Assembly (NCBI GenBank): GCA_016177795.1
Contig: JACOUM010000004.1
Coordinates: 1 to 64,000 of the forward strand
Direction of reading: 5' to 3'
Length of the DNA: 64,000 nt
Origin: Nitrosomonadales bacterium
Lineage (GTDB): Bacteria; Pseudomonadota; Gammaproteobacteria; Burkholderiales; Gallionellaceae
Shown here: in pieces, positions 37,681-52,431 of the stretch
Layout of the letters: the number at the start of each line of letters is the position of its first letter
Position numbering within the stretch: position 1 is the first letter of the stretch
Translations under genes and position numbers: made by a program
Notes under the pieces: model-generated
What the model saw: only the letters and a program-made list of their open reading frames with translations
Databases searched by the model: none
What the model was told of the DNA's origin: nothing

Positions 37681-39102
37681 ATGCATCTTCTAATCACCGC
37701 TCTCGCCCTCGCGCTGCTGTCCGGTTGCGCGCAGAACCCGGTTACCGGACAAAGCGATTTCGTGATGATGTCGGAAGAGCAGGAAATAGCCATTGGCAGG
37801 CAATATAACGAACAGGTAATCAGCAAGCAGTACCAGGTTTACGGGTCGAAGCCGTTGCAGGATTACGTCAATCGCGTCGGTCAGAAACTTGCAAGAAATA
37901 GCCATCGCCCCCAACTGCAATATCACTTTGCCGTACTGGATACCCCAGAAATCAATGCCTTCGCATTGCCCGGGGGTTATGTCTACCTCACCCGCGGCAT
38001 TCTGGCCTATCTCAACAGCGAGGCGCAGTTGGCCGCCGTAGTCGGGCATGAAATCGGCCATGTCACGGCGCGCCACGGCGTGCGCCAGCAGAGCGCCGCA
38101 CAGGCCGCCAATATCGGGCTGACCATCGCCTCCATTTTCGTGCCAGAGGTCAATTCGATGGGCGGACAGAACCTTACCAATCTGATTGGTGGAGCGCTGC
38201 TGTCCGGCTACGGTCGCGAACACGAACTGGAGGCCGACCGGCTTGGCGCGCAATATCTGGCACGTGCCGATTACGATCCCCAGGCCATCATCAGCGTCCT
38301 CCGCGTGTTGAAGAACCAGGAATTGAAGGATGCCGAACTGGCCAAGGAGGAGGGGCGTGAGCCGCGCCGCTACTCCGGCCTGTTCTCCACACACCCGGAC
38401 AACGACACGCGCCTGAAACAAGTGGTCGGCGAAGCGGACAGGTTGGCCTCCGCAGCGCCCTTTGAGGGCCGCGCTGAATTCCTCGCCGCTACCGACGGGC
38501 TGGTGTTCAACGATAACAGCGACCAGGGCGTGGTGCGCAACAACCGCTTCTATCACGGCGAACTGGGGATCACTGTCGCCTTCCCGCAAGGCTGGCAGGT
38601 GCACAACTTGCCGGATGTCCTGGCTGCCGTCAGCCCGCGGGGAGAAGCGATGGTGCAGATGAAAATGGATCAGAAACCGCGCGGCACCCCGGCTGACTAC
38701 GCGCGACGCCTGGTGGGCTCAGGCGCGCAGGTGCGCTCGCTCGATCTGGGCGGCTTGCCTGCCGCAACCTTTGAACTGCCAAACACCATGGGCGGCGTGA
38801 TCTATCAGGGCAAGTATGCCTATATCCTGCAGGCACAGGCCAAGGCGCGCGGCGGCCTGAATAAATATCGCAATGAAATTTTCGATACGGTGCACAGCTT
38901 CCACTCCATCACCGCCGAGGAGCGCAAGCTGGTCAAACCGCTCAGCATTCGCGTCATCACCGCGCGGCGGGGCGACACCTACGCCGGGCTGGCGCGGGGC
39001 TCGCCGCTGGGCAAATCGGCGGAAAGCTACCTGCGCCTGATAAACGCGCAATATCCGGACGGCGAACCGCAGGCGGGACAGGCAGTCAAGATTGTGGAGT
39101 AG
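37681..39102 (+). CDS. M48-family zinc metalloprotease lipoprotein (BepA/LoiP-like)
   Basis: The 473-residue protein starts with a lipoprotein signal peptide and lipobox LLSGC (Cys 16). The protease domain follows, with the zinc motif HEIGH at 123-127 and the third ligand in REHELEADRLGAQ. A C-terminal part of about 200 residues contains a serine-protease-free beta region and a final LysM-like stretch (ITARRGDTYAGLA...YPDGEPQAGQAVKIVE). It is probably a periplasmic quality-control protease for outer-membrane proteins. Similar fusions of M48 and a C-terminal repeat are common in betaproteobacteria. ATG 37681 was chosen to keep the lipobox near the N-terminus. Confidence 0.9.
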   Translation: MHLLITALALALLSGCAQNPVTGQSDFVMMSEEQEIAIGRQYNEQVISKQYQVYGSKPLQDYVNRVGQKLARNSHRPQLQYHFAVLDTPEINAFALPGGYVYLTRGILAYLNSEAQLAAVVGHEIGHVTARHGVRQQSAAQAANIGLTIASIFVPEVNSMGGQNLTNLIGGALLSGYGREHELEADRLGAQYLARADYDPQAIISVLRVLKNQELKDAELAKEEGREPRRYSGLFSTHPDNDTRLKQVVGEADRLASAAPFEGRAEFLAATDGLVFNDNSDQGVVRNNRFYHGELGITVAFPQGWQVHNLPDVLAAVSPRGEAMVQMKMDQKPRGTPADYARRLVGSGAQVRSLDLGGLPAATFELPNTMGGVIYQGKYAYILQAQAKARGGLNKYRNEIFDTVHSFHSITAEERKLVKPLSIRVITARRGDTYAGLARGSPLGKSAESYLRLINAQYPDGEPQAGQAVKIVE

Positions 39103-39220
39103 TGAGTGGGGAGTGGGGAGTGGGTTTTCCTACTGAGGCGTGCAGCGCCGTTCCACTTTCCACTGAGCGTAGCGATCCACTTTCTACTGAGGCGTGCAGC
39201 GCCGTTTCATTCACCACGAA
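39103..39220. repeat. Dispersed repeat, family C (copy 3)
   Basis: After the protease stop come GTGGGGAGTGGGGAGTGGG, then CTACTGAGGCGTGCAGCGCC occurring twice (about 39129-39148 and 39185-39204), with TTCCACTTTCCACTGAGCG in between. The ACTGAGGC and CCACTTTCCACT words match copies at 19358-19451 and 11009-11103. Confidence 0.8.
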
Positions 39221-39251
39221 TAGTAGAAAATGACTTTTTTCTGAAAGCATA

Positions 39252-40904
39252 ATGTACTTCATAAGACCCACCGATCCGCATCCGATCACCTCCGCCAAGG
39301 CGCTGCTGCTTGGGATGCTGATCCTGATCTGGGTTGCCACCGGCCTGATCGGGCATGACCCGTGGAAACCGGATGAAGCGACCGGTTTCGGCCTGATTTA
39401 TTCCATGCTGCAAAGTGGCGACTGGCTGGCGCCTGCGCTTGCCGGTGAGCCGTATATGGACAAGCCGCCGCTGTTTTACTGGACCGCGGTACTGTTCGCC
39501 AAATTATTCTCGCCGCTGTTGCCGCTGCACGATGGCGCGCGCATCGCCAGCGGTTTTTATATTGCACTGACCCTGTTGTTCACCGGCCTTGCCGGGCGCA
39601 AGCTGTATGGCGAGAATCGCGGCTGGGCCGCCGCGATCATTCTGATGGGCTGCGTCGGCATGCTGGTGCGCGCGCACCAGATGATCACCGACCTTGCGCT
39701 GCTTGCCGGGTGCGCGATGCTGCTGTACGGCTTCGCCTACAGCCAGGAACGCGCTGTGCGCGCCGGGGTGCTGATCGGCACCGGCATGGGTATCGGTTTC
39801 ATGTCCAAAGGCTTTATCGCGCCGGTACAGTTTGTCTTGATCGCAGCCCTGCTGCCCGCGCTGTTCAAAAACTGGCGCACGCGCAGCTATTTCTTCAGCA
39901 TGACCATTGCCGCATTAAGCGCGCTGCCGTGGCTTGCCGTGTGGCCGCTGCTGCTCTATCAGCATTCGCCCGAATTATTTGCCGACTGGGCGTGGACGCA
40001 CAACATCGGCCACTGGCTGGATCACGCGAGAAGCGGACCGACGCGGGAATCGCTCTACTACCTGGAAAATCTGCCATGGATCGCGTGGCCCGCCCTGCCG
40101 CTGGCGGCATGGACGCTGTGGCAATCGCGCAAACGCCTGGCGCAGCGCGACGATCTGCATTTGCCGTTGGTCGCCTTCGGCGTGATGCTGGTCACGCTCA
40201 GCCTTGTGCCGCATATCAAGGAAGTATTCGCGCTGCCGATGCTGCTGCCGATCACCCTGCTTGCCACCGCCTCGCTCTCGTCGCTGAAACGCGGTGCGGC
40301 CAACGCGCTGGACTGGTTCGGGCTGATGACCTTCGCGCTGGCCGCCATCCTGATGTGGTGGGGTTGGGCTGGGTTGCTGCTGGACAATCACGCCAAGATT
40401 ACCCGGCTGCTGAAAGATTATCAGCCTGGCTTCGATCCGGCGTTTCATGCCGTCCCCTTCTACATTGCTGCACTCGCCACCGTGCTGTGGCTGGTGCTGG
40501 TGTGGCGCGTCGGCCGCTCGATGCGCCGCGCGGTAGTCAACTGGGCAACCGGCATCACGCTGATCTGGATACTTGCGATGACACTGTGGCTGCCATGGCT
40601 GGAAAGCGGCAAGAGTTACCGCGGCATGGTCGCTTCACTGAAGCAATCCATGCCGGAGCAATACCAATGCATCGGCCGCGATGATAATCTCGGCGAAGGG
40701 CAGCGCGCCATGCTGCATTATTTCGGCAACATCATCACGCGACACGATCCCGATAACCGTTGTGATTTGCGCCTGATTCAGGGCGACAAGCTGTCCAGGC
40801 CGATGCTCGACGAAACACGTTGGGAAGAAATCTGGGAAGGCAGCCGTATGGGTGACAAGAGCGAACACTACCGGTTGTACCGGCGCATCGAATTGCCGCA
40901 CTAA
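39252..40904 (+). CDS. GT39-like integral membrane glycosyltransferase (ArnT/PMT family)
   Basis: The 550-residue protein has about a dozen hydrophobic segments and the N-terminal catalytic acidic motif HDPWKPDEATGFGLIYSML, typical of ArnT and related GT39/GT83 enzymes that transfer sugars from polyprenyl-phosphate donors on the periplasmic face. MDKPPLFYW and GRKLYGENRGW fit the family. Substrate cannot be predicted; lipid A or glycan decoration are possible. No lipid A arn operon is nearby. The C-terminal soluble tail after residue ~440 is short. Confidence 0.83.
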   Translation: MYFIRPTDPHPITSAKALLLGMLILIWVATGLIGHDPWKPDEATGFGLIYSMLQSGDWLAPALAGEPYMDKPPLFYWTAVLFAKLFSPLLPLHDGARIASGFYIALTLLFTGLAGRKLYGENRGWAAAIILMGCVGMLVRAHQMITDLALLAGCAMLLYGFAYSQERAVRAGVLIGTGMGIGFMSKGFIAPVQFVLIAALLPALFKNWRTRSYFFSMTIAALSALPWLAVWPLLLYQHSPELFADWAWTHNIGHWLDHARSGPTRESLYYLENLPWIAWPALPLAAWTLWQSRKRLAQRDDLHLPLVAFGVMLVTLSLVPHIKEVFALPMLLPITLLATASLSSLKRGAANALDWFGLMTFALAAILMWWGWAGLLLDNHAKITRLLKDYQPGFDPAFHAVPFYIAALATVLWLVLVWRVGRSMRRAVVNWATGITLIWILAMTLWLPWLESGKSYRGMVASLKQSMPEQYQCIGRDDNLGEGQRAMLHYFGNIITRHDPDNRCDLRLIQGDKLSRPMLDETRWEEIWEGSRMGDKSEHYRLYRRIELPH

Positions 40905-42424: not shown

Positions 42425-42453
42425 TTGACGCGCCTTCTTCACTCTGAAAAAAT
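42425..42453 (+). promoter_or_regulatory. Candidate promoter for the cobalamin riboswitch/CbpA-CbpB transcript
   Basis: TTGACG at 42425-42430 is followed after 17 bases by AAAAAT at 42448-42453. The -35 is good but the -10 is poor. It would start the transcript just before the riboswitch. The 150 bases upstream show no other gene; a 15-codon frame (42400-42447) overlaps the -35 and is probably chance. Confidence 0.35.
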
Positions 42454-42465
42454 GCCGTCACCGTT

Positions 42466-42626
42466 CGGTTCGACGAAACGGAACACGGTGCAAATCCGTG
42501 GCGGGCCCGCCGCTGTATCCGGGGACGGACGTTGCAAGGTTGCAAGACCAGCCACTGGCGGGGATTACCCCGGCGGGAAGGCGCGACGATCCGGCTGATC
42601 CGGTAGCCAGAAGACGTGTCGAACCG
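42466..42626 (+). promoter_or_regulatory. Cobalamin riboswitch 1
   Basis: The closing stem is perfect: CGGTTCGAC (42466-42474) pairs with GTCGAACCG (42618-42626). Inside are the riboswitch landmarks GGAACACGGTGCAAATCCGT, CCCGCCGCTGTATCC, GCCACTGG, CGGGAAGGCG and the B12-box-like AGCCAGAAGACGTGT. It lies directly ahead of a GGAG ribosome-binding sequence (42631-42634), suggesting translational control. It precedes the CbpA-like peptide and the radical SAM enzyme, not a cobalamin synthesis gene, which is unusual. Confidence 0.93.
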
Positions 42627-42643
42627 ATTCGGAGCCAGTTAAA

Positions 42644-42781
42644 ACGCAACAAACAAACCAGGCGGCACCAGCAGCCAATGCACAACCATCCGCACCGACC
42701 ATCGCTGTCCGCAAGAGTTGCAACCCGGATGGCATCGGCCTCTCGCACTACGTGTTGATGGACAAGAAAGCGGCCAAATGA
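42644..42781 (+). CDS. CbpA-like modified peptide precursor (no standard start codon)
   Basis: In the frame ending TGA 42779-42781 there is an unbroken stretch with an Ala/Pro/Gln-rich leader and a conserved-looking tail: TIAVRKSC, then NPDGIGLSHYV and LMDKKAAK. Its stop overlaps the ATG of the next gene (ATGA). This matches my recollection of CbpA, the peptide modified by radical SAM enzyme CbpB. No ATG, GTG or TTG precedes the tail. The most plausible start is ACG at 42644, one base from ATG and 9 bases after GGAG, giving 45 residues; GTT at 42638 is another option. The gene could use a rare start, carry a sequencing error, or be decayed. The single Cys (residue 26 from ACG) is a candidate modification site. 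Confidence 0.6.
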   Translation, partial: TQQTNQAAPAANAQPSAPTIAVRKSCNPDGIGLSHYVLMDKKAAK

Positions 42782-44157
42782 CGGCTTCTGCATTAAGTCG
42801 GGCCGCTTGCGGCCCGACATTCATTCCCGTGGACATCGGCCATGATATTTATGCTGCCGTCACCGACCCGAACACCGCCTTCTGGGCGCTGGTCGACAAG
42901 ACGCGTATCCAGGAAGAACTTGCTACCGGGTCGCTGCACGACAGTTATCGAGCCAAAGCCGATAGTTTCGCCCGCGAACTGCACGCCCTGCGCTTCGAAC
43001 TGAAACCCTCCGGCGTCTATCTGAATCCGACTGAGCGATGCAACCTCAACTGCACTTACTGCTATTTGCCCGGCGAGCAGCGCAGCAGCGGTAGCCACAT
43101 GCCCTCCGAAACGCTGATTGCTTCACTCGACAAGCTACGCGATTACTTTCGCTCGGTGATGCCGGAGGAGCGCAAGCCACGCGCCATCTTTCACGGCGCA
43201 GAGCCCCTCATGAACAAGGAAGCGGTGTTCTCCGCCATTGATGCGTTCTCTGCAGATTTTGTTTTCGGTCTGCAAACCAACGGCACGCTGCTCGACGATG
43301 AGGCACTGGAATTTCTCACCTCGCGCAACGTCAGCATCGGTCTTTCGCTCGACGGCCCCTTCGCTGGCATCACTGATGCTACGCGCAAAACCTGGGGCGG
43401 AAAAAGCGTGCATGACAGGGTCTTGGCGGCGATGGAAAAGCTGAAGGGGTATGGCTCCTGGAGCGTAATCACCACCTGCACCACCGAAAACCTGCCTTAC
43501 CTGACACAGATGGTCGAGCTGTTCCACGCCAGTGAAGTGCCGACCTGCATGCTCAATACGGTGCGCTGCACCCTGCCCGGCGCACGCGGCGTTAAACCGG
43601 CGGATGACGATTTGGCAAAAGCCTTCTTCGCCGCCATGGATCGCACGCACGAGCTCTATCGTGAAACGGGACGCAAGCTGATAGTCGCCAATTTTGCCAA
43701 CATCCTTATCGGAATTCTTGCACCGACCGCACGACGTCTGATGTGCGACATTTCGCCCTGCGGCGGTGGCCGCGCCTTCTTCGCTCTGGCGGCAGATGGC
43801 GGACTGTACCCGTGTAGCGAGTTCATCGGCCTGCCGAGTTTCAACGGCGGCAATTTGCTGGCCGAAGGCGGCGTCGAAGCAGCGCTGGCCTCTCCCGCTT
43901 TCCAGACCGTGACGACGCGCGATGTCGATATTTTCAGCCCCTGCGGCGGCTGCGCGATCCGTCATTTCTGCGGCTCTCCTTGCCCGGCCGAAGCATATGA
44001 AATGAACGGTGGCATGGAGAAAACCGGCGCCTTCTGCGAGTTCTACAAGGAGCAGGTTAGTTATGCCCTGCGCCTGATTGCAGACGGCAAAGCGAATGAC
44101 TACCTTTGGGATGGGTGGGACGAAGACACGGAGACGGTATTCGACCTGGCGATGTAA
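42778..44157 (+). CDS. Radical SAM/SPASM peptide maturase, CbpB-like
   Basis: The 459-residue protein has the radical SAM motif CNLNCTYC (Cys 88, 92, 95) in NPTERCNLNCTYCYLPGEQ and a C-terminal SPASM region with many cysteines (MCDISPCGGG, YPCSEF, PCGGCAIRHFCGSPCPAE, GAFCEFY) for extra Fe-S clusters, typical of ribosomal-peptide-modifying enzymes. The N-terminal 75 residues are of unknown fold. Its start overlaps the stop of the CbpA-like peptide by 4 bases, implying translational coupling, and both lie under a cobalamin riboswitch. That combination is the CbpA/CbpB arrangement as I remember it. Product and role are unknown. Confidence 0.88.
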   Translation: MTASALSRAACGPTFIPVDIGHDIYAAVTDPNTAFWALVDKTRIQEELATGSLHDSYRAKADSFARELHALRFELKPSGVYLNPTERCNLNCTYCYLPGEQRSSGSHMPSETLIASLDKLRDYFRSVMPEERKPRAIFHGAEPLMNKEAVFSAIDAFSADFVFGLQTNGTLLDDEALEFLTSRNVSIGLSLDGPFAGITDATRKTWGGKSVHDRVLAAMEKLKGYGSWSVITTCTTENLPYLTQMVELFHASEVPTCMLNTVRCTLPGARGVKPADDDLAKAFFAAMDRTHELYRETGRKLIVANFANILIGILAPTARRLMCDISPCGGGRAFFALAADGGLYPCSEFIGLPSFNGGNLLAEGGVEAALASPAFQTVTTRDVDIFSPCGGCAIRHFCGSPCPAEAYEMNGGMEKTGAFCEFYKEQVSYALRLIADGKANDYLWDGWDEDTETVFDLAM

Positions 44158-44414: not shown

Positions 44415-44588
44415 AAGTCCCCCACCTGTGCCGTTGACCCGGCATCTTGAACCTGCGGTCCAAGAGGGTCACTTCCCTGCCGCATCAGGATCATCCGGAT
44501 GGACGTTCACAACAGCGGCCTTGCGGGTCGCGACCTAAGCTAAACTATTGGCTCAAAGAATTACAGGTCTGACGGACACCGCAGGGGA
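44415..44588 (-). ncRNA. ssrS: 6S RNA
   Basis: The minus-strand RNA starts right after the zapA stop and has the 6S layout. A closing stem pairs GTCCCC near the 5' end with GGGGGAC near the 3' end. The 5' half has CTTTGAGCCAATAG, and the 3' half has CTTGGACCGCAGGTTCAAGATG, recalling the conserved CUUGAACC...GGUUCAAG region. 6S RNA mimics an open promoter and sequesters sigma-70 RNA polymerase in stationary phase. Its position after zapA is conserved across proteobacteria. Ends are estimated to a few bases. Confidence 0.87.
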
Positions 44589-44592
44589 CAAC

Positions 44593-45174: not shown

Positions 45175-45203
45175 TTGGCAGTGCGCCGTGCTTGTGCTAA
45201 AGT
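45175..45203 (+). promoter_or_regulatory. Sigma-70-like promoter of the cobalamin uptake operon
   Basis: TTGGCA (45175-45180), a 17-base spacer, and TAAAGT (45198-45203) make a good sigma-70 promoter. The expected start, near 45210, coincides with the 5' edge of riboswitch 2. Confidence 0.65.
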
Positions 45204-45211
45204 GCGCCCTG

Positions 45212-45395
45212 CTTTGAGGTTCTCGTCTGGCGACAGATGAGTTAAACGGGAAATAGGTGAGGGAGAATCAACCCGATGCCTGTGCTGCCCCCGCAACGGT
45301 AAGCGAGTGCGGATTTGCCAGTATGCCACTGTGAGCAATCATGGGAAGGCGGCAAATCAAGACTTGCGAGCCCGGAGACCGGCCTGAGAGCAAAG
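45212..45395 (+). promoter_or_regulatory. Cobalamin riboswitch 2
   Basis: Typical consensus blocks are present in order: GAGGTTCTCGTC, ACAGATGAGTTAAACGGGAA, TAGGTGAGGGAGAATC, TGCTGCCCCCGCAACGGTAA, GCGGATTTGCC, ATGCCACTG, ATGGGAAGGCGGCAAATC, and the B12-box GAGCCCGGAGACCGGCCT. A short CTTTG/CAAAG closing stem flanks it. About 130 bases separate it from the btuB start, enough for an expression platform. It controls the btuB-btuM-cob cluster. Confidence 0.95.
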
Positions 45396-45526
45396 GTAAC
45401 AGGAGATGCTGCGGGCGGCGCATCGGAAAAGAACAATTCAATCGTTCAACTCTGCTCCCCCCACCGCATTTCCTGAATATAAACATTCCAGCGGGGTCGC
45501 TTGGAATTTACTCAGGAAAATCACCA

Positions 45527-47386
45527 ATGAAATTGCAAAAACTTTTTGCCGCCGTTTTATGCGCGGCCACTCCCCTGGCTTATGCAGCAACCGACACACT
45601 GGATGAAATCGTGGTAACCGCCAGACGCATCGCGCAGCCATTAAAGCGATCCTTGATCAGCGCCACCGTCATCACCCAGCAGGATATTCGCAAATCACAG
45701 GCAGTCGATGCGGCAGCTATTTTACGCAGCGTAGTCGGCGTGGAAATCGATCAGTCCGGCGGGGTAGGTAAAACAACCAGTTTGCACCTCAGGGGTACCA
45801 ATGCCACGCATACCTTGATTTTGCTGGATGGCGTGCGTATCAGTTCTGCTACCAACGGCTCCACCTCGATTCAAGAGTTAATGCTGGATCAAATCGAGCG
45901 TATCGAGGTAGTACGCGGCAATGCCAGCAGCCTGTACGGATCGGAGGCCATTGGAGGTGTGGTGCAGATTTTTACCAAGCGTGGCCGTGGCGTGCCCGCT
46001 CTTAATATGAACGTCGGCATGGGCAATCGGGGTACGCAGCGCTTGGCCGCTGGATTTGGCGGCGCAACCGAGAACACAGACTTTAATGTACAAGCATCCG
46101 CGTTCAAAACCGATGGCGTGTCGGCCATCAATCCTGCACGGTTCCCCGGCGCCAATCCAGACAAGGACGGATACAAAAATACCAGTCTATCGGCCAATGT
46201 GCGCCATGCATTTAATTCGGATCACAGTCTGGCTGCCACAGCGTTTAATAGTCAGGGACGCAATCAGTACGACAATACGGTAACCCCGACCGACAACAAT
46301 ACCAACCAAACGCAAGTGAGCAAATTCTCTCTTTCATCCGACAATCGTCTAGGAGACATCTGGCAAAGCCACTTGCAACTGGCCCAGGGCACGGATGACA
46401 CGCAAACTTTCCTGAATGGCCAACTGGATTTGGCGAACGGGGCAATGTTCAAGACAAGCAACCAGCAGCTTACCTGGGAAAATATGTTGCAGCTGGGCAC
46501 GCATACCTTACTCAATTTGGGAGTAGAAAATTTAACACAAACGGTCACGAGCGATGTCGCCTTCACGACCAAAAAACGCAAGGTGGACAGCCTGTTTATG
46601 GGCTATACGGGTTACTACGGTTTACATCAGATACAAATCAATTTGCGTCAGGACAGTTATTCCGACTTTGGCCGGTCGAACACCGGACTGCTTGGGTATG
46701 CCTACGCCATCAATGATGTCTGGCGGGCAACAGCAAGCATGGGAACTGCATTTAAAGCACCCACGCTCAACGACCTGTTTTACCCCTTTACGAATTTTGG
46801 TGGGGGCTGGACCTATGCAGGCAACCCCAATTTACAACCGGAACATTCCCGCAATCGGGAATTGGGATTGCACTATACGGAGGATGTGCACCGTTTCGAT
46901 GCCGCGTATTTTGATAATCGGATTAGCAACCTAATTACCGGAAATAATCTACCCGCTTTTATGGTGGTCAATCTGGGTGAGGCGCGCATTGATGGCGTGG
47001 AATTGAGTTACGCCGGGCAGTTTGGCGATACAGGCATAAAAGCTGCATTGACTTCGCAAAACCCCCGCAACGCAGGCACGGGCCAAGCCCTGATACGCCG
47101 TGCCAGACAGCATGGTAGCATCGGTCTGTCGCAACAATTCAGTGGATGGCAAGTTGGCGGAGAGTGGCAGCACAGTGGATCACGACCGGATGCAAATTTG
47201 TCAACGGGCTTGCCTGTTACCCTGCCAGGCTACAACGTGATCAACCTGACTGCGGGCTATGCGATCAACAAAAATCTGAAGTTGTCCTTGCGTGCGGATA
47301 ATCTGACCAACCAAAATAACGCAACGGCTTATGGTTACAACCCTCTTGGGCGCACCTTGTTTGCCGGCCTGAGTTACCAGCAGTAA
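45527..47386 (+). CDS. btuB: TonB-dependent vitamin B12 receptor BtuB-like
   Basis: The 619-residue product has a signal peptide (cleavage near AYA-ATDTL), a TonB box (DEIVVTARR), a plug domain (TVITQQDIRKSQAVDAAAILR, LHLRGTNATHTLILLDGVRI, IERIEVVRGNASSLYGSEAIGGVVQIFTKRG), and a long barrel that ends LGRTLFAGLSYQQ. Its position just after cobalamin riboswitch 2 and ahead of btuM makes cobalamin the likely ligand. It is at the typical BtuB length. ATG 45527 is preceded by AGGAAA. Confidence 0.92.
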   Translation: MKLQKLFAAVLCAATPLAYAATDTLDEIVVTARRIAQPLKRSLISATVITQQDIRKSQAVDAAAILRSVVGVEIDQSGGVGKTTSLHLRGTNATHTLILLDGVRISSATNGSTSIQELMLDQIERIEVVRGNASSLYGSEAIGGVVQIFTKRGRGVPALNMNVGMGNRGTQRLAAGFGGATENTDFNVQASAFKTDGVSAINPARFPGANPDKDGYKNTSLSANVRHAFNSDHSLAATAFNSQGRNQYDNTVTPTDNNTNQTQVSKFSLSSDNRLGDIWQSHLQLAQGTDDTQTFLNGQLDLANGAMFKTSNQQLTWENMLQLGTHTLLNLGVENLTQTVTSDVAFTTKKRKVDSLFMGYTGYYGLHQIQINLRQDSYSDFGRSNTGLLGYAYAINDVWRATASMGTAFKAPTLNDLFYPFTNFGGGWTYAGNPNLQPEHSRNRELGLHYTEDVHRFDAAYFDNRISNLITGNNLPAFMVVNLGEARIDGVELSYAGQFGDTGIKAALTSQNPRNAGTGQALIRRARQHGSIGLSQQFSGWQVGGEWQHSGSRPDANLSTGLPVTLPGYNVINLTAGYAINKNLKLSLRADNLTNQNNATAYGYNPLGRTLFAGLSYQQ

Positions 47387-47479
47387 AAGCGGCAGAGAGA
47401 GGGGGCGCGCTTAGATGCAATATTTTTCAGCTAAAGCTATCACCAAACTGTGTGTCTTAAATTGAAAGGAGAAACAAGA

Positions 47480-48043
47480 ATGAAATTGCAAACTCGACAA
47501 ACTGGAATATTGGCTGTGTTGGTGCTGTTAATGGCGGCTACACGCATGCACCATTTCGGCAGCGCACTGCATTTGCCGGATGCTTCGCTTGCGGTGTTCT
47601 TGCTGGCGGGGTTTTTTATCTCCACGCCCTGGCTGTTTGCAGGATTGCTGTTTGAAGCAGGTACGTTGGATTATGTGGCAATTGCCCACTTGGGCGTGAG
47701 CGACTGGTGCGTAACACCCGCCTACTGGTTTTTGATTCCGACCTATGCGGCCTTGTGGTATGCGGGACGTCACTATGCGCGCATTCATCAGCACAACCTG
47801 CGCAGCTTGGGCGTGTTCGCCGGTCTTTCTGTTGCTGCGTTGAACGTAGCGTTCTTCATTTCCAACGGTGCCTTTTACTGGTTCTCTGGCCGCACCCCAA
47901 ATATGGGCATGACTGAATACGCCGCTCGCGTAACGCAATACTATCCCCAGTACTTAGTCGGTGGCATGCTGTACCTGGCGTGTGCTGCTGCGCTGTATAC
48001 GGTGCTGACCGCGCGCACGCCGGTTGCCGTCGAAGCCGACTAA
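47480..48043 (+). CDS. btuM: BtuM-like cobalamin transport membrane protein
   Basis: The 187-residue membrane protein has about six hydrophobic segments and carries TRMHHFGSALHLPDASLAVF and the key motif GVSDWCVTPAYWF with Cys 77. These match BtuM, a cobalamin-specific small transporter described in Thiobacillus denitrificans, in which one cysteine coordinates cobalt and removes the cyanide ligand. The Cys is conserved here. It follows btuB by 93 bases with a good ribosome-binding site (AAAGGAGAAAC), and its stop overlaps the cobO ATG (TAATG). No ABC-type btuCD genes are seen, so BtuM could be the inner-membrane route. Confidence 0.87.
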   Translation: MKLQTRQTGILAVLVLLMAATRMHHFGSALHLPDASLAVFLLAGFFISTPWLFAGLLFEAGTLDYVAIAHLGVSDWCVTPAYWFLIPTYAALWYAGRHYARIHQHNLRSLGVFAGLSVAALNVAFFISNGAFYWFSGRTPNMGMTEYAARVTQYYPQYLVGGMLYLACAAALYTVLTARTPVAVEAD

Positions 48044-48651
48044 TGAACGACAAGAATGCCGCGGACGAGCAACACCGCGCCCGCACCCAACGCCACAAGG
48101 AAGTGGTCGATGCGAAGATCGCCCGTGCCACCGAAAGCCGCGGCGTGGTGCTGGTGCATACCGGCAACGGCAAGGGCAAGAGCAGTTCGGCATTCGGCAT
48201 GGTCGCACGCGCCCTCGGGCATAACATGCACGTCGGCGTGGTGCAATTCATCAAGGGAGGTTCTCCCACCGGCGAGGAGGTCTTTTTTCGTCGCTTTCCG
48301 GAAGTCGAATATCACGTGATGGGCGACGGTTTCACTTGGGAGACGCAGGATAAGCAACGCGACATTGCCTCGGCGCAAGCTGCGTGGAATGTGGCTTGCG
48401 CCATGCTACGCAACCCGGACATTGCGCTGGTTGTACTGGATGAAATCAATATCGCGCTGAAGCTGCACTACCTGGAAATCAGGCAGGTACTGGAAGCGCT
48501 ACGCAACCGCCCGGCGATGCAACATGTGATACTGACCGGTCGTGCTGCGCCCGATGCGCTGATCGAATACGCTGATACTGTCACGGAAATGCGCCCTATC
48601 AAGCATGCATTTGATGCCGGAATACAGGCGCAAAATGGCATAGAGTTGTAA
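48043..48651 (+). CDS. cobO: Corrinoid adenosyltransferase (CobO/BtuR)
   Basis: CobO transfers the 5'-deoxyadenosyl group from ATP to reduced corrinoid. The 202-residue product has the P-loop region VLVHTGNGKGKSSSAFGM (residues about 35-52), VGVVQFIKGG, and DIALVVLDEINIALKLHYL, characteristic of CobA/CobO/BtuR. Its start overlaps the btuM stop by 1 base. It would adenosylate corrinoid brought in by BtuB/BtuM before late assembly. It is intact. Confidence 0.95.
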   Translation: MNDKNAADEQHRARTQRHKEVVDAKIARATESRGVVLVHTGNGKGKSSSAFGMVARALGHNMHVGVVQFIKGGSPTGEEVFFRRFPEVEYHVMGDGFTWETQDKQRDIASAQAAWNVACAMLRNPDIALVVLDEINIALKLHYLEIRQVLEALRNRPAMQHVILTGRAAPDALIEYADTVTEMRPIKHAFDAGIQAQNGIEL

Positions 48652-48745
48652 TGCCCGCGTGCCATCCCCTTGAACTGCTGATTGGCACGCGTTCCTCCGC
48701 CAATTTCACCAGGCAATTCTGCCTTCCCGCCATGCCGACGTATAT

Positions 48746-50209
48746 ATGACCGCCACCACACTGATGATTCAGGGCACCACTTCGGATGCGGGCAAGAGCA
48801 CCGTTGTAGCGGGACTATGCCGCGCGCTCAAACGGCGCGGCTTGCGCGTGGTGCCATTCAAGCCGCAGAACATGGCGCTGAACAGCGCAGTGACTGAAGA
48901 CGGCGGCGAGATCGGGCGCGCACAGGCGGTGCAGGCGCAGGCGGCGGGCCTTGCTCCTCACACCGACATGAACCCGGTGCTGCTGAAACCGAATAGCGAC
49001 ACCGGCGCGCAGGTCATTATTCACGGGCGCGCCATCGGCAACATGGAAGCCACGGCCTATCACGACTACAAACAGGTGGCGCGCGCGGCGGTGCTCTCTT
49101 CGCACCAGCGGCTGGTGATGCAATACCAGATCATTATGGTGGAAGGTGCCGGTTCACCTGCCGAGATCAATCTGCGTGCCGGAGACATCGCCAACATGGG
49201 CTTTGCCGAGGCGGTGGATTGCCCGGTCATCCTGGTCGCCGACATCGATCGCGGCGGTGTGTTTGCTCATCTGGTGGGCACGCTGGCATTGTTGAGCGAG
49301 AGCGAACAAGCGCGCGTGCATGGCTTCATCATCAACCGCTTTCGCGGCGACATCGCGCTATTGCAGGATGGACTGGACTGGCTGGAGGAACACACCGGCA
49401 AACCGGTGCTGGGCGTGCTGCCGTATCTGCACGGACTGCACCTGGAAGCCGAGGATTCCATATCGCGCGCAATGACTGACGCTGCCCCCGGGAGTTTGCG
49501 CGTGGTGGTACCCGCCCTGCCGCATATCAGCAACCACACCGACTTCGATCCGCTGCGCCTGCATCCGCAAGTGACACTGCACTGGGTTGCGCCTGATGCA
49601 GCGCCATCCACTGCCGATTGTGTGATTCTGCCCGGCAGCAAGAACGTGCGCGCCGATCTTGACTGGCTGCGCACGCAAGGCTGGGAGGACTATCTGGCGC
49701 GCCATCTGCGCTATGGCGGCAAGCTCATGGGCATCTGCGGCGGGCTGCAAATGCTGGGTAGCGCGCTGCACGATCCGCACGGCATCGAAGGTGCGCCGGG
49801 CAGCAGTCCAGGGCTCGGTTATCTGGACTTCGACACCACCCTGCAAACACATAAACAATTGCTCAATGTGCACGGCAAGCTCGCACGGAACGGTATGCCG
49901 GTGAGCGGCTACGAGATTCATGCCGGGATCAGTGAAGGCAATGCTTTGCGACGCCCCTTCGCGCAACTCGATGACGGCCGTACGGATGGTGCAATTTCTG
50001 ACGATGAGCAGATCATGGCGACGTATCTGCACGGCGTGTTCGAGTCACCGCAAGCATGTGCCGCATTGCTGGACTGGGCCGGATTGCAAACGCCGCAACC
50101 TTTTGATTATCACGCATTGCGCGAGCAGAATCTGGAGCGCTTGGCCGATACGCTGGAAACGCATCTGGATATGCGGCACATCTTGCAGTTGTCTGGAGCA
50201 GACGCATGA
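48746..50209 (+). CDS. cobQ: Cobyric acid synthase
   Basis: CobQ amidates four side chains of adenosylcobyrinic a,c-diamide to give adenosylcobyric acid. The 487-residue protein has an N-terminal P-loop-like nucleotide domain ([17 protein letters not shown] and [10 protein letters not shown]) and a C-terminal glutaminase domain with the nucleophile Cys in [10 protein letters not shown] and histidine in YLHGVF. Both are intact. It lies 94 bases after cobO and overlaps cobU by 4 bases. Having CobQ implies the cell makes or takes up corrinoid before cobyric acid, whereas the gene set otherwise looks like salvage. Confidence 0.95.
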
Positions 50210-50718
50210 AAGAACTGATCCTGGGCGGGGCACGTTCCGGCAAGAGTCGCCTCGCCGAACAGCACGCGCAGGCGAGCGGATTGCCGGTCACCTATCTGGC
50301 CACGGCCACGGTAAAGGATGATGAAATGCGGGCGCGCATCGCACACCATCAGGCGCAGCGCCCCGGACATTGGCAGCTGGTGGAAGAGCCGCTGGCACTG
50401 GCTTCGGCTTTGCAATATCACGCCGCCACAGAGCATTGCGTGCTGGTGGATTGCCTGACGCTGTGGCTGACCAACCTGTTATGTGCGCAGGACGAGGCGC
50501 GCTTGCATCATGAGGTGACCACGCTACTGGAAGTATTGCCGGGACTGCCGGGAGAAATCATCCTGGTAAGCAACGAAACCGGCATGGGCGTGGTGCCGCT
50601 GGGTGAGTTGACGCGGCGTTATTGCGACGAGGCGGGACGCCTGCATCAGGCCGTGGCACGGTCCTGCGAAAAAGTGATATTAACGGTGGCGGGTTTGCCA
50701 CTTAATTTAAAAGGGTAA
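50206..50718 (+). CDS. cobU: Adenosylcobinamide kinase/guanylyltransferase
   Basis: CobU phosphorylates adenosylcobinamide and adds GMP to form adenosylcobinamide-GDP. The 170-residue protein has the P-loop [11 protein letters not shown] at its N-terminus, the CobU-type [13 protein letters not shown], and [24 protein letters not shown]. All landmarks are intact. It overlaps cobQ by 4 bases and is followed 10 bases later by cobT. Confidence 0.96.
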
Positions 50719-50728
50719 AACAGGGATC

Positions 50729-51787
50729 ATGACTACTAATTTGAACTGGCTGAAGCAGGCCGCACCAGCATTGAATGAAACTGCCCGCGCAGCAGCCCAG
50801 GCACGCCAGCAGCAGCTGACCAAACCGCCCGGCGCGCTGGGGCAACTGGAAGGGCTGGCGATACAGCTCGCGGCCATGCAGGGCCGCGAAAAGCCGCAGA
50901 TAGGACAGGTGTACATCGGCGTATTTGCAGGCGACCACGGCGTGGCGGCAGAAGGCGTGTCGGCCTTCCCGCAGGCGGTAACCGCCGAGATGGTGAAGAA
51001 TTTCGCGCGCGGCGGTGCAGCCATCAGCGTGCTGGCACAGCAACTCGGCGCCACACTGGAGGTGGTGAATCTCGGCACAGCCTTCGATACCGGCGAACTG
51101 CCGGGCGTGCTGCAATGCAATCTGGGAAAAGGGACGGCCAACTTCGCGCACGAAGCCGCGATGACAGAAAGCCAGCTGACCGATGCTTTGCAGGCGGGCA
51201 GTGAGAGCGCCGCGCGCGCCGAAAAAGACGGTGCCTCGATATTCATCGGCGGCGAGATGGGCATCGCCAATACCACGGCCGCCGCAGCTCTGGCCTGTGC
51301 TCTGCTCAACTTGATGCCGCACCAGCTTGCCGGACCCGGCACAGGTCTTGATCAGGCCGGGGTACAGCACAAGGCGGCAGTGGTGGCACGTGCGCTCGCA
51401 CTGCATGCGGCACATCTGAGCGACCCGCTGGAAGTGCTGCGTCGCCTCGGCGGCTTTGAAATCGCAGCCCTGACCGGTGCTCTCATCGGCTGCGCACAGC
51501 GCGGCATCCCGGCACTGGTGGATGGCTACATCACTACTGCCGCCGCCCTGCTCGCCGTGCGTATCCAGCCCAGCGTGGCGGACTGGCTGCTGTATGCACA
51601 CCGCTCAGCCGAACCCGGACATATCCTGATGCTGGAGGCATTGCAGGCTGAGCCGCTGTTGCAACTGGGCATGCGTTTGGGCGAAGGCAGTGGTGCTGCC
51701 GTCGCAATACCGCTCATCCGTCTGGCCTGCGCATTGCACAACGACATGGCAACGTTTGCTGAAGCGGGCGTGTCAGAAAAAATGTGA
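50729..51787 (+). CDS. cobT: Nicotinate-nucleotide--dimethylbenzimidazole phosphoribosyltransferase
   Basis: CobT activates the lower-ligand base as alpha-ribazole phosphate. The 352-residue protein has the family sequence [44 protein letters not shown] and the catalytic-Glu motif [17 protein letters not shown] near the C-terminus. It is intact. No dimethylbenzimidazole biosynthesis gene (bluB or bza) is in the window, so the base must come from elsewhere. Its stop overlaps the next start (TGATG). Confidence 0.96.
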
Positions 51788-52431
51788 TGCCTGTTCAAAT
51801 AGCTGAACCTGCCCAGACGGCTGTTTCCTACCAAATGGGGCTGTCTCACGGCAGCACCCATATCGACCTGCTGCGCCACGGTGAAACCCAGGCAGGCAGT
51901 GTCTATCTGGGGCGCAGCGACGCGCCGCTGAGCGAGCATGGCTACCGGCAGATGGCAGAGGCCTTGCTGAATGCGCCGCATTACCATGCGGTGCTGAGCT
52001 CACCGCTGGTGCGTTGCGCGGCATTCGCAAAAGACTACGCGCAACGGCACGGCCTGCCCCTGCATTGCGATGCGCGGTTTCAGGAGATGGATTTTGGCGT
52101 ATGGGATGGGTGCAGCGCGGCGGAGATTGCCGCCGCAGATGCCGCCGCGCTGGAGAATTTCTGGCGCGATCCGGTTGCCTTTCCGCCGCCGCAGGCCGAG
52201 CCGCTGCTGTCGTTCCAGGCACGTGTGCTGTCGGCCTGGCGAGAGCTGCCTGCACGCTATCCCGGTCAGCGCGTGCTGTTGGTTACGCATGGTGGGGTGA
52301 TGCGTATCATCCTGTGCCACCTGCAACAACGCCCCTTGGGTGAACTACTCAACCTGTCAGTGCCGCACGCTGCACTGCACCGGATTTGTGTGGAACATGA
52401 GCCGCAGCAAACCGCACTGGTCTCGACATGA
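51787..52431 (+). CDS. cobC: Alpha-ribazole phosphatase, histidine phosphatase family
   Basis: CobC removes the phosphate from the alpha-ribazole or cobalamin 5'-phosphate. The 214-residue protein has the RHG motif DLLRHGETQ, the region VLSSPLVRCAAFAKDYA, EMDFGVWDG and the second histidine VTHGGVMRI, so the catalytic residues are complete. Context among cobU/cobT/cobS supports the specific function; the fold alone would also fit other phosphoglycerate-mutase-like phosphatases. ATG 51787 overlaps the cobT stop. Confidence 0.92.
   Translation: MPVQIAEPAQTAVSYQMGLSHGSTHIDLLRHGETQAGSVYLGRSDAPLSEHGYRQMAEALLNAPHYHAVLSSPLVRCAAFAKDYAQRHGLPLHCDARFQEMDFGVWDGCSAAEIAAADAAALENFWRDPVAFPPPQAEPLLSFQARVLSAWRELPARYPGQRVLLVTHGGVMRIILCHLQQRPLGELLNLSVPHAALHRICVEHEPQQTALVST

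Follow-up and report, generated by a model that had tools for sequence, protein, structure and literature searches.

What would a bacterium make from a cobalamin (vitamin B12) riboswitch, a very small reading frame and a radical S-adenosylmethionine (SAM) enzyme set one behind the other? The question is raised by contig JACOUM010000004.1 of a Nitrosomonadales bacterium of the Gallionellaceae (GenBank GCA_016177795.1; 1.65 Mb in 12 contigs, 73.8% complete), positions 1 to 64,000 of which were analysed and are called the window here. An earlier reading of the letters without database searches (the sequence-only reading) had compared the two genes with the CbpA/CbpB pair. The best explanation as a whole, to which we give a probability of about 45%, is that cbpA and cbpB are a B12-repressed two-gene unit whose ribosomal, radically modified peptide would be made when cobalamin is short and would probably serve the corrinoid and cobalt economy of the cell. 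The parts of the locus are as follows; R1 is an aptamer model described below.

42425 to 42453, plus strand: possible sigma-70-type promoter, TTGACG-17-AAAAAT with TG before the second hexamer (weak candidate from a consensus scan)
42449 to 42637, plus strand: cobalamin riboswitch aptamer (RF00174, 79.9 bits; R1, 155.6 bits at 42480-42617)
42637 to 42638, plus strand: junction at which about 105 nucleotides (nt) of the relatives are missing (alignment with six relatives)
42638 to 42781, plus strand: cbpA frame without a start codon, a variable Q/T/A/P-rich part followed by the conserved core TIAVRKSCNPDGIGLSHYVLMDKK (TIGR04164)
42778 to 44157, plus strand: cbpB, radical SAM/SPASM peptide-modifying enzyme (TIGR04163)

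Peptide and enzyme

The cbpA frame (47 codons), which includes TIAVRKSC...GIGLSHYVLMDKK, scored 57.3 bits against the CbpA model TIGR04164 (cut-off 35), and the product of cbpB scored 728.3 bits against the CbpB model TIGR04163 (cut-off 375), so that the profile check confirmed the family assignment. The next NCBIfam family for the enzyme was PapB (NF047865) with 117.5 bits, far under its cut-off of 340, and the anaerobic sulfatase maturase model TIGR03942 gave 97.5 bits against a cut-off of 349.45. NCBIfam already has names for both members of the pair, and the same two names stand side by side in a RefSeq plasmid record. No published function of CbpA or CbpB was found in the literature searched, which covers few subscription journals and preprints.

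Radical SAM/SPASM enzymes carry the motif CX3CX2C plus SPASM CX9-15GX4C...CX2CX5CX3C...C, which is present in CbpB as Cys 88/92/95, 328/346, 389/392/398/402 and 420. Cys 88, 92 and 95, which the sequence-only reading had singled out together with a cysteine-rich end, and the C-terminal Cys 323, 328, 346, 389, 392, 398, 402 and 420 were invariant in all 68 aligned sequences. The two genes overlap in an ATGA, with the cbpA stop TGA at 42779-42781 lying over the cbpB ATG at 42778.

A scan of named genomes yielded at least 433 stretches with a tblastn relative (E <= 1e-3), not necessarily all CbpB, and counts on relatives refer to the best 80 of these (L031-L110, 59-95% identity), picked by CbpB alone. 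The nearest CbpB relatives of the window copy were Gallionellaceae records. A CbpA core was found within about 450 nt upstream of cbpB in 80/80 relatives, and the conserved-looking tail of the tiny frame, which had been proposed for comparison with other genomes, is thereby borne out. Core statistics were taken from 82 cores (66 distinct), leaving out L101 with its one-residue insertion. The search pattern required Arg, Cys, two Gly, Leu, His and Tyr/Phe, whose fixity is therefore partly by construction; the requirement cost no locus, and Cys was present in 82/82 cores, though required by the pattern. The Ser preceding His was fixed (82/82), and the residue following Tyr/Phe was Val or Ile in 82/82, the next Leu in 81/82 and the next Met in 76/82. 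The part of CbpA N-terminal of the core was variable. The core was nearly unchanged across records that bear the labels Actinomycetota, Chloroflexota, Planctomycetota and Pseudomonadota. Its codons vary at silent sites, so that it is the peptide which is under selection.

In two Sedimenticola records (L074 and L076) the CbpA frame, which lies about 140-270 nt before the cbpB match, contains the core twice in tandem. This repetition within one frame marks the core as the working unit.

Riboswitch

The window aptamer scored 79.9 bits against RF00174 (gathering threshold 31.5; E 4.7e-18), in agreement with the cobalamin riboswitch first seen before the tiny frame. The model R1 was built from 18 aptamers preceding cbpA, the window copy among them. 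R1 found an aptamer directly upstream in 68 loci, 17 of which had served to train it, and a search with Rfam added L103, for a total of 69/80 loci. Five loci (L053, L056, L057, L059 and L096) lack an aptamer of their own and belong to same-strand runs of cobalamin genes with an aptamer at the head, which brings the loci with an aptamer directly in front or heading the gene run to 74/80. Neither R1 nor Rfam found an aptamer at L035, L077, L079, L083 or L084, and L055 offered only 216 nt of upstream sequence. R1 scores were 64-156 bits for cbpA aptamers and 26-33 bits for those heading btuB or cbi genes, while some opposite-strand aptamers that precede other genes scored 58-76 bits.

Among the 68 relatives plus the window, a terminator-like hairpin lay between aptamer and core in 59/69 sequences versus 15/69 single shuffles (the weak hairpin of L043 is uninformative, part of its leader being N). 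Ten sequences lacked it: besides the window, these were nine relatives from a single, mostly alphaproteobacterial clade. This arrangement supports a predicted B12 off-switch in most lineages. In intact relatives, an aptamer occupied by cobalamin would permit the terminator to form and so stop transcription; in the absence of cobalamin, cbpA and the adjoining cbpB would be made together.

Two further arrangements of aptamers were seen. Planctomycetota loci L073 (3294-3683) and L075 (7890-8279) hold back-to-back cobalamin aptamers, directed toward cbpAB and toward cobC/cobU/cobT-type genes. At L037 (14138-14254) and L038 (15619-15735) a cbpA-type aptamer on the minus strand accompanies a gene of the nitroreductase family, which may be BluB.

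Missing leader of the window copy

ATG, GTG and TTG are all absent from the cbpA frame of the window, which is the sole exception among 81 sequences, an in-frame start codon being present in 80/80 relatives. We had looked for a small gene before cbpB that is intact and translatable, and the window copy lacks one. About 105 nt are missing between aptamer and cbpA frame by comparison with L032, L004 and L031 in the alignment with six relatives, and the absent stretch holds, in relatives, an intrinsic terminator, a GAGGAG-like ribosome-binding site and the ATG with the next codons. No terminator-like hairpin was found in the window leader, which was examined for a terminator-type platform only. 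As assembled, the frame is probably not translated normally, to judge from what it has lost. The control that the sequence-only reading ascribed to the riboswitch thus stands in part: the aptamer, and the hairpin in most relatives, argue for it, while in the window copy, with neither terminator nor cbpA start, it is doubtful because the leader is missing.

The rest of the pair is sound. The CbpA core is intact and the ratio of nonsynonymous to synonymous substitution (dN/dS) of cbpB is 0.04-0.10 between the window and six relatives, which indicates normal constraint; the idea that cbpB has decayed since cbpA lost its start was rejected on this ratio. Either a recent deletion of the 5' part or an error of assembly would fit the window copy. 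That the 105 nt were lost in assembly or amplification at a very stable terminator hairpin, with cbpA intact in the organism itself, is a matter separate from function, and we hold it to be slightly short of an even chance. The undecayed remainder of cbpA and cbpB, the hairpin of one relative (-48 kcal/mol, z -11.2) and the incomplete, 12-contig genome speak for such an error. Against it, the missing stretch is not bounded by the hairpin, since it extends about 45 nt beyond it, to just after the start codon.

Gene context and distribution

Labels for B12 genes were local hidden Markov models (HMMs) of protein clusters, most with at least one member checked by Pfam or NCBIfam. By strict labels, B12 genes were near 11/36 loci with flanks of at least 19 kb, partly close kin, versus 2/40 control regions (p = 0.005), and near 21/80 of all loci; by all labels, 4/40 controls had them. 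The controls were 40 regions of 20 kb on a grid of round coordinates, taken from seven CbiD-bearing genomes that each consist of a single contig. In the CbpB tree, loci placed among cobalamin genes fall at three or four places (L053; L056/L057/L059; L096; L079), the long branch of L079 being unsure and falling in one set with L096. A CbiX-type gene directly follows cbpB in five loci at three of these places (L053; L056/L057/L059; L096). The proteins are CbiX by Pfam, and their nearest NCBIfam models are nickelochelatases, with scores below cut-off.

A conserved partner gene was sought and none was found, the cluster seen most often beside cbpB being CbiA (15/80 loci). The commonest transporter cluster was an ABC ATPase of mixed kinds (10 loci). 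Neighbours examined included CbiM (2), NicO (1) and a CobW/HypB/UreG-domain protein (1), and among them no exporter, immunity or peptidase family was common to many loci; these Pfam counts cover 89/144 downstream and 87/148 upstream frames, hand-picked, and the 25 commonest families.

At the level of whole genomes, the search for CbiD covered those behind 50 of the 80 loci and found it in 40/50 cbpB-bearing genomes. In the phylum sample it was found in 8/11 cbpB carriers versus 72/288 other genomes, with a p of 0.0016 that is too small, 6/11 carriers being of one genus. The ten carriers without CbiD had a CobN-family match in four and none in six, whose completeness is not known; the search for CobN, over 26 chosen genomes, used PF02514, a family that spans Mg-chelatase too, so that the G662 match could be one or the other. 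One genome of 99% completeness (G007) has cbpAB and MetH and lacks CbiD, CobN and CbiX. MetH was present in 12/14 carriers examined.

CbpB above cut-off was found in 4/61 nearest-relative genomes and 11/299 genomes of the phylum, the own genome included in both, and in 1/274 genomes of the class, which is the own genome. The best 80 carry the labels Pseudomonadota, Planctomycetota, Chloroflexota, Actinomycetota, Bacillota, Nitrospirota, Verrucomicrobiota, Acidobacteriota and others; many are metagenome-assembled, and single phylum labels may be wrong. Cultured carriers found by the scan are Dechloromonas, Aromatoleum, Azospira (including A. oryzae), Propionivibrio and Rhodoblastus, and the locus of Dechloromonas denitrificans (L045) is one of the intact ones. 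A phage origin was rejected, one scan of viral contigs having given no relative.

Three genome records hold two cbpAB loci each (L051/L052, L065/L067 and L059/L066). In Azoarcus BE2011_69_25 one cbpAB lies among cobalamin genes and the other behind its own aptamer. On the plasmid of Methylovirgula sp. HY1 (L159, 9798-11377), annotated cbpA and cbpB stand near another radical SAM gene, pqqA, pqqD and pqqE, and no aptamer was detected at this copy.

Neighbourhood in the window

The promoter candidate before the aptamer matches the consensus at 9/12 positions, such sites numbering 5 in the scanned stretch versus 1.5 in shuffles, and TTGAC precedes the aptamer in most of the six aligned relatives. 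Downstream of cbpB the following features were found.

44415 to 44590, minus strand: 6S RNA between the two aptamers (62 bits)
45200 to 45401, plus strand: second cobalamin riboswitch, heading corrinoid uptake and salvage genes (RF00174, 112.9 bits)
45341 to 52428, plus strand: corrinoid uptake and salvage run, btuB-like, btuM-like, cobA/btuR, cobQ, cobU, cobT and cobC-like (NCBIfam, PDB match and local cluster HMMs)

The second aptamer and this run start about 1 kb downstream of cbpB, where the sequence-only reading had placed a B12 uptake operon. The btuB-like receptor (TIGR01779, 452.9 bits) is below the cut-off of 599.7, and the true start of its gene lies downstream of the second aptamer. 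The BtuM-like transporter (47450-48043) matches PDB 8c7p, a cobalamin ABC transporter (E 4e-35), and has no Pfam or NCBIfam match. Cob(I)yrinate adenosyltransferase, CobQ, CobU and CobT were assigned by NCBIfam, and the CobC-like phosphatase scores below its NCBIfam cut-off. Elsewhere in the window, at 39102-39252, an internal repeat in frames (LRRAAPFH twice) precedes the frame at 39252-40904.

Function

The nearest known enzymes bear on the chemistry. By Foldseek, mostly over residues 72-424, the predicted model of CbpB is closest to PDB 5why/5wgg, titled thioether bond formation, with the anaerobic sulfatase maturases (PDB 4k36-4k39) close behind; families missing from this ranking may still be relatives. 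The 5why/5wgg enzyme, which we take to be CteB of SCIFF, is 21% identical to CbpB over the aligned part, and its substrate is another, Cys-rich peptide, unlike CbpA with its one invariant Cys. The anaerobic sulfatase maturases act on sulfatases by oxidising a Cys or Ser. PapB-type ranthipeptide maturases, the best other NCBIfam match, act, as CbpB would, on a Cys-containing substrate, and PapB links Cys to Asp/Glu (PMC9413430). The acidic residue of such a link is not conserved in the CbpA core, and a PapB-type Cys-Asp link was rejected. CbpB would modify the nearly invariant core, most likely by joining the invariant Cys to a nearby residue as a thioether.

The product would then probably bind cobalt or a corrinoid, or aid its capture or processing. 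The sequence-only reading had called the job of the product undescribed; the literature searched agrees, and the gene context goes some way further by pointing, indirectly, to the corrinoid and cobalt economy. We prefer this role to one in the insertion of cobalt alone, as a cofactor that spares B12 or as a signal, because the common denominator of the carriers is the use of B12 and, by the switch, B12 shortage.

A cobalt metallophore or chaperone that supplies cobalt only to ring synthesis, through CbiX or CobN, is in our estimate an unlikely product. The CbiX-type genes right after cbpB at three tree places, the frequency of CbiD among carriers, and CbiM, NicO and the CobW/HypB/UreG-domain protein among the neighbours would all suit it. 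The metal of the CbiX-type proteins is not settled, however, since their best NCBIfam scores are with nickelochelatases and below cut-off, and the six carriers of unknown completeness with neither CbiD nor a CobN-family match also count against it. The 99% complete G007 weakens cobalt insertion as the sole role, which is kept as a rival, and fits a role common to corrinoid users and makers; a place in the corrinoid and cobalt economy is preferred to ring synthesis alone because this genome has cbpAB and MetH without CbiD, CobN or CbiX.

Equally improbable to us is a mature CbpA that acts as a redox cofactor, enzyme-bound or free, or as a small subunit, replacing or sparing a B12-dependent function when B12 is short. 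Parallels exist in pyrroloquinoline quinone (PQQ) and the small subunit of quinohemoprotein amine dehydrogenase. A core nearly fixed across phyla is what a cofactor rather than an antimicrobial would show, no exporter or peptidase family is shared by many loci, and the peptide is presumably produced at low B12; but no conserved partner enzyme lies near cbpAB, the linkage that exists goes to B12 genes, and no B12-independent isozyme was seen among the neighbours examined. A secreted signal or antimicrobial with synthesis tied to B12 status, as peptides of SPASM enzymes often are, is very improbable, given a core that hardly varies across phyla, the lack of a widely shared exporter, immunity or peptidase family, and an ABC ATPase cluster too mixed to show peptide export.

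With a role in the corrinoid and cobalt economy, CbpA could be the first ribosomal peptide for corrinoid or cobalt acquisition, B12-repressed, radically crosslinked, present in B12 makers and users of many phyla, and binding cobalt or the cobalt of corrinoids via its invariant Cys/His core, although we consider this full description rather doubtful. The near-fixed core together with the aptamer at 74/80 loci points to a general, uncharacterised step of B12 economy.
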